Shown here: piece after piece, positions 5,799 through 30,156 of the stretch
Position numbering within the stretch: position 1 is the stretch's first letter
Layout of the letters: each line of letters opens with the position of its first letter
DNA from: Coriobacteriia bacterium
Lineage (GTDB): Bacteria; Actinomycetota; Coriobacteriia; Anaerosomatales; Anaerosomataceae
Assembly: GCA_026416035.1 (NCBI GenBank)
Contig: JAOAFY010000005.1
Span: forward strand, 1,184 to 48,062
DNA: 46,879 nucleotides
Direction of reading: 5' to 3'
Position numbers and translations under genes: made by a program
Notes under the pieces: generated by a model
Seen by the model: the letters and a program-made list of their open reading frames with translations, nothing else
What the model was told of the DNA's origin: nothing
The model's database searches: none

Positions 5799-7046
5799 AT
5801 GGCGCTATCTGGACTCGAGACCGTCTTCTGGGGTGTCGTGACCTTTTCGATACTCGTGATCCTCCACGAGGGGGGTCACTTCGTCGCCGCTCGGGCGTTC
5901 GGCGTGACCGTGCACGAGTTCATGATCGGATTGCCCGGTCCGGCACTTCGAATCCGCGGGCGCAAGACCACGTACGGCATCACCGCCATCCCCTTCGGCG
6001 GCTACGTTCGCATCGCCGGCATGGAGCCAGGCGAAGAGGACCCGCTGCTCGGTCCGGCGCTTCAGGCGATCGCCGCCTCGGGACGCATGACCGTCGGGGA
6101 GCTGGCCCGCCATCTCGGGATCGATGCTGAACGGTCGTCCGACCTCGCGTCTGTGCTGGAGGACTGGGGCGCAGTCGTCAGAGACGAAGTCCACGGCCTG
6201 ACGCTCGCTCCGGGGCTCGATCCCGAGACGCCCGCTTCTGAGCTGCTCGCCCAGGTCAGGGCACGGACCTACAGGGGTCTGTCCACCCCACGGCGCGTCG
6301 CCGTCCTGTCGGCCGGGGTGGTGACGAACATCCTCGCCGCGATCCTGGTGTTCACCTTCGTGCTCTCGGTCTTCGGCACGTACGAGCCTGGCCTGACTGT
6401 GGAGTCCGTCCAGCCGGGCTCGCCTGCGGCCCGTGCGGGGCTGCAGGCCAAGGACCGCCTCGTCTTCGCAGGCGGCAAGAAGCTCTCGTCGTGGAACGAG
6501 TTCCAGCAGACCGTGGCCTCATCGAAGCCGGGCGATGCCCTGCGAGTCGTGGTTCGCCGTGGCGGTAAGGAGGTCGCCACGGTCGTGACTCTGGGCGAGA
6601 TGGACGGGCACGGCTACGTGGGGGTCCGGGTGCAGCTCGACAAGGTCGATTACTCGCTCGGAGAAGCCCTGCGGCAGAGCTTCGTGTGGACGGGCATGGT
6701 GTTCGTCGCCATCGTAGGGTTCTTCCGTCCGGACACGTTCCCGCAGTCGGTCGAGAACGCCCGCAGCGTCGTCGGCATCAGCGTGATGGCGGCGGATGCA
6801 GCCAAGGCCGGGCCGCTCGACTACGCGTGGCTGGTCGCCTTGCTCTCGCTGTCGCTCGGCGCCATGAACCTCATGCCGATCCCGCCCCTTGACGGCGGGA
6901 AGATCGCGTTCGAGGTCCTGCAGCGCATCACTGGCAAGGCGTTCGGGCGCCGCCTCACCACCGCCGTGACGGTCGCCGGTGCGGCGCTGCTGTTCTCGTT
7001 GATCGGCTACCTCGTGTACGCTGACATCGTCAGGCTGGCAGGGTAG
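5799..7046 (+). CDS. rseP: Site-2 (M50) intramembrane metalloprotease, RseP-like
   Basis: Zinc protease that cleaves membrane-anchored regulators within the bilayer. The HExxH site is H23-H27 (HEGGH) in the first membrane helix; the second metal motif PPLDGGK is near the C-terminus, and a PDZ domain lies roughly at residues 200-270. The ATG at 5799 is preceded by GAAAGGA and places HEGGH at the usual depth; upstream in-frame codons lack a ribosome binding site. Between GGYVRIAGMEPGEED and the second helix there is a long loop, about residues 81-170, whose middle part reads like a winged helix (MTVGELARHLGI, then SDLASVLEDWGAV). The usual AGP motif is replaced by AGVVTN. Substrate unknown; it sits between dxr and ispG. 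Confidence 0.92.
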   Translation: MALSGLETVFWGVVTFSILVILHEGGHFVAARAFGVTVHEFMIGLPGPALRIRGRKTTYGITAIPFGGYVRIAGMEPGEEDPLLGPALQAIAASGRMTVGELARHLGIDAERSSDLASVLEDWGAVVRDEVHGLTLAPGLDPETPASELLAQVRARTYRGLSTPRRVAVLSAGVVTNILAAILVFTFVLSVFGTYEPGLTVESVQPGSPAARAGLQAKDRLVFAGGKKLSSWNEFQQTVASSKPGDALRVVVRRGGKEVATVVTLGEMDGHGYVGVRVQLDKVDYSLGEALRQSFVWTGMVFVAIVGFFRPDTFPQSVENARSVVGISVMAADAAKAGPLDYAWLVALLSLSLGAMNLMPIPPLDGGKIAFEVLQRITGKAFGRRLTTAVTVAGAALLFSLIGYLVYADIVRLAG

Positions 7047-8223: not shown

Positions 8224-8631
8224 ATGTCCGCTGACAAGGTCCGCGTCGCGGTCGTCGGGGCCGGCCGTACCGGAGCGCCGTTGATCGAGGCGTTCCTGCA
8301 GCTGCCGTACGTCGAAGTCGTGGGAATCGCGGACAAGAACCCGGAGTGCCGCGGTGCGCAGATCGCGCGAGAGCGAGGCGTCTTCTTCACCGAGTACCCT
8401 GACGTCCTGACAGCCAAGGGTTCGGAGATCGACGTCATCATCGAGGTGACCGGCGATCCGTCGGTCAAGCCAGCGCTCAAGCGCGCCTTCGCGTTGCAGG
8501 GCAACACGACGACCATCATCGTCCACGACCTCGTGGCACGCCTGATCCTGAGCCTCGCGACCGGAGCCGATCACCTGGTCGAGACGTACCATCCGCACGA
8601 TCGGGGCATCGGGCCCGTCGCTCAGGGCTGA
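8224..8631 (+). CDS. Small stand-alone Rossmann-fold NAD(P)-binding protein
   Basis: I do not recognise a named gene. The 135-residue product begins with a beta strand and dinucleotide loop, VAVVGAGRTGAPLI (residues 8-21), followed by VVGIADKNPE, an acidic end of strand 2 that suits NAD binding, and VDVIIEVTGDPSVKPAL-like text typical of the N-terminal domain of homoserine dehydrogenase or Gfo/Idh oxidoreductases. No catalytic domain follows. The C-terminus is His-rich (ETYHPHDRG). GGGAGGAG precedes the ATG at 8224. Similar domains occur fused to sensory proteins in other bacteria (from memory). A redox or NAD sensor is possible but unproven; context (ispG, proS) gives no clear role. Confidence 0.75.
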   Translation: MSADKVRVAVVGAGRTGAPLIEAFLQLPYVEVVGIADKNPECRGAQIARERGVFFTEYPDVLTAKGSEIDVIIEVTGDPSVKPALKRAFALQGNTTTIIVHDLVARLILSLATGADHLVETYHPHDRGIGPVAQG

Positions 8632-27915: not shown

Positions 27916-30156
27916 ATGCCACGGACCTCTGACCGCCCTCGAAGCACCAAGAAACCGGCACGGACGAAGGACTCCCGGCCGCGGACCCCGGGGCGCACCG
28001 GACTGGACGACGACACGCGCCGCGAGATCGCCGGCGTGCTCGTCAGCGCCTTCGCGCTCGTGCTCGCGATGTCCGTCGCAAGCCCTTCTTCGGGAATCGT
28101 CCCGCGTTTCATCGCACGGATGCTCGCGCTAGGCATCGGCATCGGCGCATACGTGCTGCCGGTCCTCGTGCTGCTCTGGGGTGCGAGCTTCTTCGTGCGG
28201 AGCGTCCGCATCGACGAGGCCCGCGTGGGCGCCGGTCTCGGCCTCGTCCTGTCAGCCGTGACCGCGATCTCGGCGGTCGATGCGCCCGCAGAAGTGTTCT
28301 GGGAGCCCGACGTCCTCGCGGCCCGTGGCGGCTACCTGGGGGGCGGCGTCGCATGGGCGCTTCGTTCGCTCTTCGGCGCCGCCATCAGCTACGTTCTGCT
28401 CGTCGCAGCGATGCTCGTGGGCCTCGTGGTCGCCGGCCTCTCGGTCTCGGCGCTGCTCGAACGCGGCTGGAGGGCGCTCCGTGGCCCCGCGAGGGACGAA
28501 CCGCTTTCCGCAGGTCCCGCTGCAAAGCGGCTCCGTGGCTCCGAGCAGCCGACGCTGCCGCTGGATGAGTCCCACCCAGAGCCCGTCGCGCATGCCGACG
28601 CATCGCCGTCCAGACGCCAACGACGCACCGACCCTGAGGCCCGCCGCGTCACCGTGCCGACCGCTGCAGTCGTCGCGCCGCGCCCCGCCCAGGGCTTCGA
28701 GCTTCCGCCGATGGGCCTTCTCAAACGCAGCTCGACGGCACCTGCTGCACACCGCGCCAACGAGCGGGAGCTCAAGGCGACCGCCCACACCATAGAGCAG
28801 ACGCTCGCGACGTTCGACATCGCTGCCCGGGTCGTCGACTGGATCCCTGGTCCGACCGTGACGATGTTCGAAGTGGAGATCGCACGCGGCGTGAAGGTCG
28901 GCCGCGTGACGGCGCTCGCCGACGATCTCGCGCTCGCGCTGGCGGCTCCGACGATCCGCATCCTCGCCCCGATCCCTGGCAAGAGCTACGTGGGCATCGA
29001 GGTCCCGAACGAGCGCCGAGCCACCGTGACCCTCGCCGACGTCTTAGAAGGCGGAGCAGCCGCGCATCCCAGCCCGCTGCTCTTGGCGATCGGCAAGGAC
29101 GTCTCCGGCAGCTCCGTCCTGGCGGACCTCGCGCCCATGCCGCATCTGCTTATCGCCGGAGCCACCGGAACCGGGAAGAGCGTGTGCATCAACGCGATCC
29201 TGATGTCCATCTTGATGCGGGCGACGCCCGCCGAGGTTCGCCTGATCCTCATCGACCCGAAACGGATCGAGCTCAGCCTCTACAACGGCGTCCCGCACCT
29301 CTACGTGCCGGTGGTGACCGAGCCTAAGGAAGCTGCGTCGGCCCTCGCATGGGCGGTAGGGGAGATGGACGCCCGGCTCAAGCAGCTCCAACGCGCCAAC
29401 GCCCGCAACATCGCGCAGTACAACGCCATGGTGCACGACGGACGGGCGCCGGAGGGCGCCGAGCCGATGCCGTACCTCGTGATCGTGATCGACGAGCTCG
29501 CCGACCTGATGCTCGTCGCCGCCAAGGAGGTCGAGGACTCGATCTGCCGCCTGTCCGCGCTGGCACGGGCGGCCGGGATCCACCTGGTCGTGGCGACCCA
29601 GCGTCCCAGCACGGACATCATCACCGGTCTCATCAAGACCAACATCACCAACCGCATCGCGTTCGCCGTCTCCTCGGGCATCGACAGCCGGGTCATCCTC
29701 GACCAACCGGGAGCCGAGAAGCTCGTCGGCCAGGGCGATATGCTGTTCTCGATGCCGATATGGCCGAAACCGAAGCGCATCCAAGGCGCATTCGTGACCG
29801 AGGACGAGATCATCGCCGTGGTCGATCACCTCAAGGCGCAGGCGCAGCCCGACTACCACGAAGAGATCCTCCACCTCAAAGTCGCGCCGGGAGGCTCGGC
29901 GGACGCAGAGGCTGACGAAGATCCGCTGCTGTGGGAGGCGGCCGATCTGGTCGTCACGACGGGCATGGGTTCGACCTCGCTGCTGCAGCGGCGGCTCAAG
30001 GTCGGCTACGCGCGCGCTGGCCGGATCATGGACATGCTCGAGGCGCGCGGCATCGTCGGCCCGCCCGACGGCAGCAAGCCGCGTGAAGTCCTGGTCGACG
30101 TGGGCGAGCTCGAAGCGATCAAGCGCTTCGACTCCGAGGACGCCGCCGACACCTGA
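27916..30156 (+). CDS. ftsK: DNA translocase FtsK/SpoIIIE
   Basis: Septum-anchored ATP-driven DNA pump that clears the chromosome terminus. The 746-residue protein has a basic N-terminus, four membrane segments (about residues 37-190), a linker rich in Pro/Ala/Arg, the RecA-like motor with Walker A GATGTGKSV near residue 415 and Walker B VIVIDELADLM near 520, and a C-terminal gamma winged helix (about 673-740) with STSLLQRRLKVGYARAGRIMD that reads directional sequence marks. ATG 27916 lies 2 bp after uppP. RodZ-like follows, tying division and shape genes together. Confidence 0.95.
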   Translation: MPRTSDRPRSTKKPARTKDSRPRTPGRTGLDDDTRREIAGVLVSAFALVLAMSVASPSSGIVPRFIARMLALGIGIGAYVLPVLVLLWGASFFVRSVRIDEARVGAGLGLVLSAVTAISAVDAPAEVFWEPDVLAARGGYLGGGVAWALRSLFGAAISYVLLVAAMLVGLVVAGLSVSALLERGWRALRGPARDEPLSAGPAAKRLRGSEQPTLPLDESHPEPVAHADASPSRRQRRTDPEARRVTVPTAAVVAPRPAQGFELPPMGLLKRSSTAPAAHRANERELKATAHTIEQTLATFDIAARVVDWIPGPTVTMFEVEIARGVKVGRVTALADDLALALAAPTIRILAPIPGKSYVGIEVPNERRATVTLADVLEGGAAAHPSPLLLAIGKDVSGSSVLADLAPMPHLLIAGATGTGKSVCINAILMSILMRATPAEVRLILIDPKRIELSLYNGVPHLYVPVVTEPKEAASALAWAVGEMDARLKQLQRANARNIAQYNAMVHDGRAPEGAEPMPYLVIVIDELADLMLVAAKEVEDSICRLSALARAAGIHLVVATQRPSTDIITGLIKTNITNRIAFAVSSGIDSRVILDQPGAEKLVGQGDMLFSMPIWPKPKRIQGAFVTEDEIIAVVDHLKAQAQPDYHEEILHLKVAPGGSADAEADEDPLLWEAADLVVTTGMGSTSLLQRRLKVGYARAGRIMDMLEARGIVGPPDGSKPREVLVDVGELEAIKRFDSEDAADT

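Follow-up and report, generated by a model that had tools for sequence, protein, structure and literature searches.

The protease gene and its locus

The window, i.e., the whole 46,879-nucleotide stretch of Coriobacteriia DNA analyzed here, carries on its forward strand a protease gene preceded by an AAGGA 5' of its ATG. The gene sits in the order uppS-cdsA-dxr-rseP-ispG, which is common to most of the relatives compared. Its product scores 152.7 bits against Pfam PF02163, which makes it an M50/RseP protein, and 190.7 bits against NCBIfam TIGR00054 (cut-off 147.55), i.e., above the score of the Group I family; it is the sole TIGR00054-family protein above the cut-off in its own genome. The features, in residue numbers of this protein, are as follows.

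5799..7046, +, RseP-type (Group I) site-2 protease gene, 415 aa (ATG 5799, stop 7044-7046)
5865..5879, +, HExxH zinc-binding motif HEGGH, residues 23-27 (H23, E24, G26, and H27 invariant in 38 aligned proteins)
5910..6014, +, membrane-reentrant beta-loop, residues 38-72, PxGG at 65-68 (four strands in the model; G67 and G68 invariant in 38 aligned proteins)
6042..6206, +, predicted winged helix-turn-helix (wHTH) core, residues 82-136 (AlphaFold2, full-length model, PDB matches)
6045..6266, +, insert relative to solved RseP, 74 residues, 83-156 (profile alignment to 9j82; chain residues 76 and 77 flank query residues 82 and 157)
6126..6164, +, predicted third (recognition-type) helix, residues 110-122, acidic (model, charge count)
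6165..6167, +, signature residue W123 of the insert, within D-W-G-A, 93% weighted (conservation)
6234..6260, +, predicted linker helix ahead of TM2, residues 146-154 (full-length model)
6285..6374, +, TM2, residues 163-192, AGV at 172-174 (alignment and full-length model)
6378..6647, +, PDZ domain, residues 194-283 (Pfam PDZ_2 43.9 bits, PDZ_6 37.9 bits; model)
6888..6896, +, LDG motif, residues 364-366 (D365 and G366 invariant in 38 sequences)

Judged by its HExxH motif in TM1, LDG motif in TM3, beta-loop, PDZ domain, and family score, the protein is a Group I site-2 protease (RseP, TIGR00054), and cleavage of a membrane substrate is predicted. The beta-loop is modeled as strands 38-43, 49-53, 58-62, and 68-72, and its PxGG (P65-F66-G67-G68) is the motif of the re-entrant loop described in the part of PMC4597795 drawn on here. 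The PDZ domain, with a Pfam match at 196-264, lies between TM2 and TM3. No CBS domain, a trait of Group III site-2 proteases, was among the Pfam matches of the protein to E=1. HExxH, the PxGG re-entrant beta-loop, PDZ, and LDG are all shared with E. coli and Aquifex RseP, and VIA-align gave Z values of 27.2-27.6 to 7w6x and 9j82/9j83, in an alignment that tested mostly the PDZ domain.

Elsewhere in the window, a small gene at 8224-8631 (+), between ispG and proS, encodes a 135-aa stand-alone Rossmann domain with matches barely above the respective cut-offs to DapB_N (26.8 bits) and GFO_IDH_MocA (25.8 bits). It was absent from the Collinsella, Atopobiaceae-type, and Eggerthellaceae-type loci compared, and it occupies the same place in three related loci (L086, L089, and L090).

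The insert in the first cytoplasmic loop

An additional winged-helix-like insert between the first active-site helix and TM2 had been proposed in the initial annotation. To place its boundaries, a profile of 38 relatives was aligned with the solved Aquifex RseP (9j82); the aligned pieces meet at the adjacent chain residues 76 and 77, so that query residues 83-156 have no counterpart in Aquifex RseP and the insert is real. The re-entrant beta-loop upstream is intact, and the juxtamembrane stretch and TM2 follow downstream. The insert is neither disordered nor the usual re-entrant loop, which is present besides it (38-72), these being the two outcomes against which the annotation had set its proposal. 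That the loop faces the cytoplasm, as had been assumed, follows from the RseP topology in PMC7728848 and PMC4597795, as far as the parts of both sources used here describe it.

AlphaFold2 modeling of the isolated insert (54 sequences) gave a mean pLDDT of 85.6, with 10-residue block means of 93-97 in the wHTH core, and the full-length model (mean pLDDT 93.0) recovered the same elements: helices 84-94, 99-106, and 110-122, strands 126-128 and 134-136, and helix 146-154. The model agrees with the helix-turn-helix and two-strand wing that had been read from the sequence and adds the first helix, 84-94, to them. In Pfam, the insert fragment scores 28.5-28.7 bits against MarR_2 (cut-off 27), a family whose score in the whole-protein scan is 25.9, under the cut-off, and which is also matched by 21 of the 54 related inserts at E<=0.1. 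A PDB profile search with the insert returned the wHTH of FtsK gamma (E=5.8e-4), and the best Foldseek matches in the PDB are MarR proteins (best E 5.9e-4) and FtsK gamma. For FtsK gamma the TM-score by target is 0.70-0.80 (0.72-0.80 for the four chains of 2ve8); in the MarR rows (0.37-0.45), where dimerisation helices surround the wHTH, the match covers the wHTH part alone. VIA-align of the insert gave Z values of 9.6-11.4 to many wHTH domains, including that of ESCRT-II, a protein-binding user of this fold; since so many wHTH domains match in this range, the fold can be assigned to its class but not to a family. Structure prediction and fold search confirm that the first cytoplasmic loop carries what is predicted to be a winged helix-turn-helix domain folding on its own.

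As to the family, the FtsK gamma domain is a wHTH of equal size, including the DPL lead-in, and several class inserts score 14-21 bits against PF09397, under its cut-off of 30.6 (own insert 14.6; best class insert among the matches listed 20.8). Since FtsK gamma was the best match when PDB profiles were searched, it was considered as the ancestor of the insert. Compared head to head, however, the profiles gave 64.8% for FtsK gamma versus 68.4% for MarR; they fail to separate the two, and the ancestry could lie with either. In several related genomes, protease inserts are among the next-best matches of PF09397. An ftsK gamma domain also lies in the same window at about 29914-30096 (+), about 23 kb downstream of the protease; ftsK/spoIIIE is often found near this gene cluster, and for this reason nothing is drawn from its presence.

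Distribution and conservation in Coriobacteriia

All 30 proteins taken from the window's order, the one studied here among them, have the insert. An insert model trained on these 30 insert rows, all from that order, found a match in 61/64 other class proteins, some genes being reached twice in this set (e.g., L070/L124 and L053/L079), and in 0/39 proteins outside the class, which answers the question raised in the annotation of how widely M50 proteases of Coriobacteriia carry the insert: it is class-wide, and named carriers include Collinsella, Adlercreutzia, and Slackia. The three class misses are L070 and L124, i.e., the same gene of a termite-gut MAG, which is without the insert, and L110, which has an insert too divergent for the model (merely 3.0 bits). 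The spacer between the GG motif and TM2 is about 31-63 residues long in most outside proteins and about 105-180 in the class, with L124 (42) as the class exception; in this listing the TM2 end is wrong for L224 and L231 and missing for L102 and L226. The extraction for the tree and the model test holds no protein from L063, L092, L093, L094, L130, L142-L152, L221, and L225, and inserts are visible in the spacer listing for L093 and L094. Residue-level reading beyond the class covered a sample of the genomes in the phylum. Between its flanks, the insert is about 85 to 161 residues long in the class. Three proteins (L108, L110, and L125) have further expanded inserts, 146-161 residues between flanks, with compositionally simple stretches between the wing and TM2.

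In a tree of 69 rows built without the insert columns, L070 groups together with all 47 rows that bear the insert (SH-aLRT 99; the tree is of the quick type, with SH-aLRT support only and no bootstrap). Two changes are enough to explain the pattern: the insert arises once, at the base of the class, and is lost once, in L070. On this comparison the predicted wHTH insert is shown to be a trait of the class Coriobacteriia, gained once at its base and kept almost everywhere. In the lineage without it, gene order is retained (L124). A separate gene replacing the domain there was considered and rejected: a search for a stand-alone copy gave 0 matches in the genome of that lineage (G044), and none was seen at the L124 locus.

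The domain is conserved about as tightly as the PDZ domain: mean pairwise identity among 21 order members is 0.39 for the wHTH and 0.37 for the PDZ, and pN/pS among four congeners is 0.42 and 0.44, respectively. By these sequence measures the putative wHTH evolves at PDZ-domain pace, under comparable constraint. The two domains can be separated. All four Eggerthellaceae-type proteins scanned have no PDZ, in which they differ from RseP and from the protein studied here, and keep the insert; L070 keeps the PDZ, and the insert is absent. As read from these proteins, Eggerthellaceae lost the PDZ domain and retained the predicted wHTH, and the fates of the two domains are independent. In the Eggerthellaceae-type RseP homologues without PDZ (L079-L082), TM2 runs almost straight into the TM3 region.

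The annotation had further noted an alteration of AGP to AGV in the second helix. This is correct for the protein itself (V174), but it is unlinked to the insert: the third AGx residue is V in 24, P in 12, I in 10, and A in 1 of the insert-bearing proteins (n=47), and P in 14, V in 4, A in 2, and S in 2 of those without (n=22). With no correlation, we regard AGV as incidental and not as part of the insert feature.

Possible roles of the domain

A DNA-binding-like or protein-binding domain had been suggested for this loop; the winged helix holds, DNA binding is disfavored, and the coupling of substrate choice to a cytoplasmic signal that was proposed along with it may exist. If the wHTH bound DNA or RNA, it would tether the protease to the chromosome or to a promoter, in the manner of FtsK gamma and MarR proteins, and the MarR_2 score of the fragment, the FtsK gamma similarity, and the top fold matches, most of which are DNA-binding proteins, all speak for such a tether. 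The charge speaks against it. Residues 82-136 carry a net charge of -9 to -1, negative in 54/54 sequences and averaging -5.1, with a positively charged recognition helix in only 1/54, so the basic DNA-contacting helix and wing of the MarR type are not what the insert has. As controls, the MarR domains of related genomes (n=13, from 13/30 loci recovered by motif) have a mean of -0.7 with 4/13 positive, and the FtsK gamma domains (n=27) have 0. FtsK of the related genomes bears a GY[AS]RAGR recognition helix, whereas the insert has D-x-[DE]-R-A and no GYxRA-type helix; its short wing is without the D-R wing pattern of the MarR proteins of these genomes, and the domain, which shares with the MarR regulators the wHTH core alone, is part of a membrane protease and anchored at the membrane. 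The most conserved residues are the core leucines and W123 in D-W-G-A; the signature pair D-W is not shared by the MarR and FtsK gamma domains of related genomes, which have other residues there, and the exposed face of the domain is variable apart from W123. Taken on the sequences, DNA binding by the insert is unlikely, and the tether as a whole is given a small chance; the acidic charge is consistent with a protein-facing module, although charge alone is no proof against DNA binding.

A quieter possibility is that the wHTH acts as a spacer, passive and structural, which would stabilize the loop and TM2 with no partner at all. The variable surface argues for a structural over a specific docking role, and the spread of insert lengths in the class, the loss in one lineage, and the unrelated inserts that other lineages carry at this site point the same way; the purifying selection, as strong as on the PDZ domain, the retention even in the PDZ-less Eggerthellaceae, and the nearly invariant, family-specific W do not, and we consider a mere spacer possible but less likely than not. 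It is very improbable that the insert is the RasP-type cytoplasmic insert of Bacilli in another guise. The Lactobacillaceae proteins L111 and L121 do have a long insert at the same place (spacer 111), and the closest whole-protein fold match of the full model is PDB 9a6w, titled RASP-ECSA, in which, by its title, the cytosolic ABC ATPase EcsA is modeled on RasP. However, the inserts of these RasP-type proteins have no detectable sequence relation to the one studied here: no local alignment with that of L111 was obtained, the L111 insert matches no Pfam family, and the wHTH model gives L121 0.1 bits, which is the best of the 39 outside proteins.

The reading we prefer, and to which we give about an even chance, is that the class-wide, once-gained wHTH of this Group I protease serves as a cytosolic positioning or docking module and not as a DNA binder. 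The domain would sit under the membrane beside the substrate-presenting re-entrant loop, hold the linker ahead of TM2 in place, and offer a protein-binding face to the cytoplasmic part of substrates or to an adaptor, so that cleavage could depend on a cytosolic partner. Bacillus subtilis SpoIVFB, with the role proposed for its CBS domain and linker, would offer a parallel. We favor docking because the insertion point adjoins the substrate-presenting loop (the re-entrant loop and the stretch ahead of it bind substrate in the parts of PMC7728848 and PMC4597795 used here), because the domain is retained class-wide with one gain and one loss, under PDZ-like constraint and also where the PDZ is lost, and because of its D-W signature pair and non-DNA-like charge. 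There are also precedents in which cytosolic parts matter, as far as the cited portions of these papers go: the substrate of SpoIVFB makes contact with the linker, and the CBS domain, although not essential, is proposed to place this linker and, with it, the substrate (PMC11486902), and Ecs, an ABC transporter, influences RasP (PMC2996298). SpoIVFB and the other CBS-bearing Group III proteases thus also have a cytosolic accessory domain beside the membrane core; in the parts of PMC10202637 and PMC11486902 used here it is a C-terminal CBS with no PDZ, unlike the wHTH in loop 1 of a PDZ-bearing protein. That the L070/L124 lineage lives without the domain counts against docking. The familiar substrate and partner are missing or different here, which also counts against it, since a search of the window's genome gave 0 zf-HC2 anti-sigma factors and 0 EcsB; PF08281 was found in five places, four of them above the cut-off.

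We found no site-2 protease with a winged helix or helix-turn-helix, or from Coriobacteriia, described with this architecture in the literature searched, outside which many subscription journals lie. The accessory domains of site-2 proteases named in the portion of PMC10202637 used here are PDZ (outside) or CBS (inside); the predicted wHTH would come as a third kind, located within a PDZ-type protease beside the substrate-presenting loop. With a removable domain of this sort, the responsiveness of a Group I site-2 protease to the cytosol could be tested directly; nature has run experiments of its own in the Eggerthellaceae without PDZ and in the termite-gut lineage without wHTH.

Long spacers of different make-up at this loop occur in the two Lactobacillaceae proteins above, in f62 (L044, L049, and L054), in f47 (L215), and in L222, which suggests, from sequence comparison, that the loop site tolerates modules repeatedly. 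Tentatively, the loop may be an interchangeable socket filled independently in each case, with the Coriobacteriia wHTH as a cytosolic sensor or adaptor that chooses membrane substrates and could replace the lost PDZ in Eggerthellaceae; we hold this wider reading to be possible but on the unlikely side. The inserts of f62 and f47 are long and helical-looking or highly charged; the insert model found no wHTH in those tested, and the L044 insert has no Pfam match above the cut-off. L222 (G368, same phylum, f66) is an M50 protease with an additional PDZ between the re-entrant loop and TM2: its first-loop insert is itself a PDZ domain (PF17820, 3.4e-13), in a loop that would be cytoplasmic by RseP topology.
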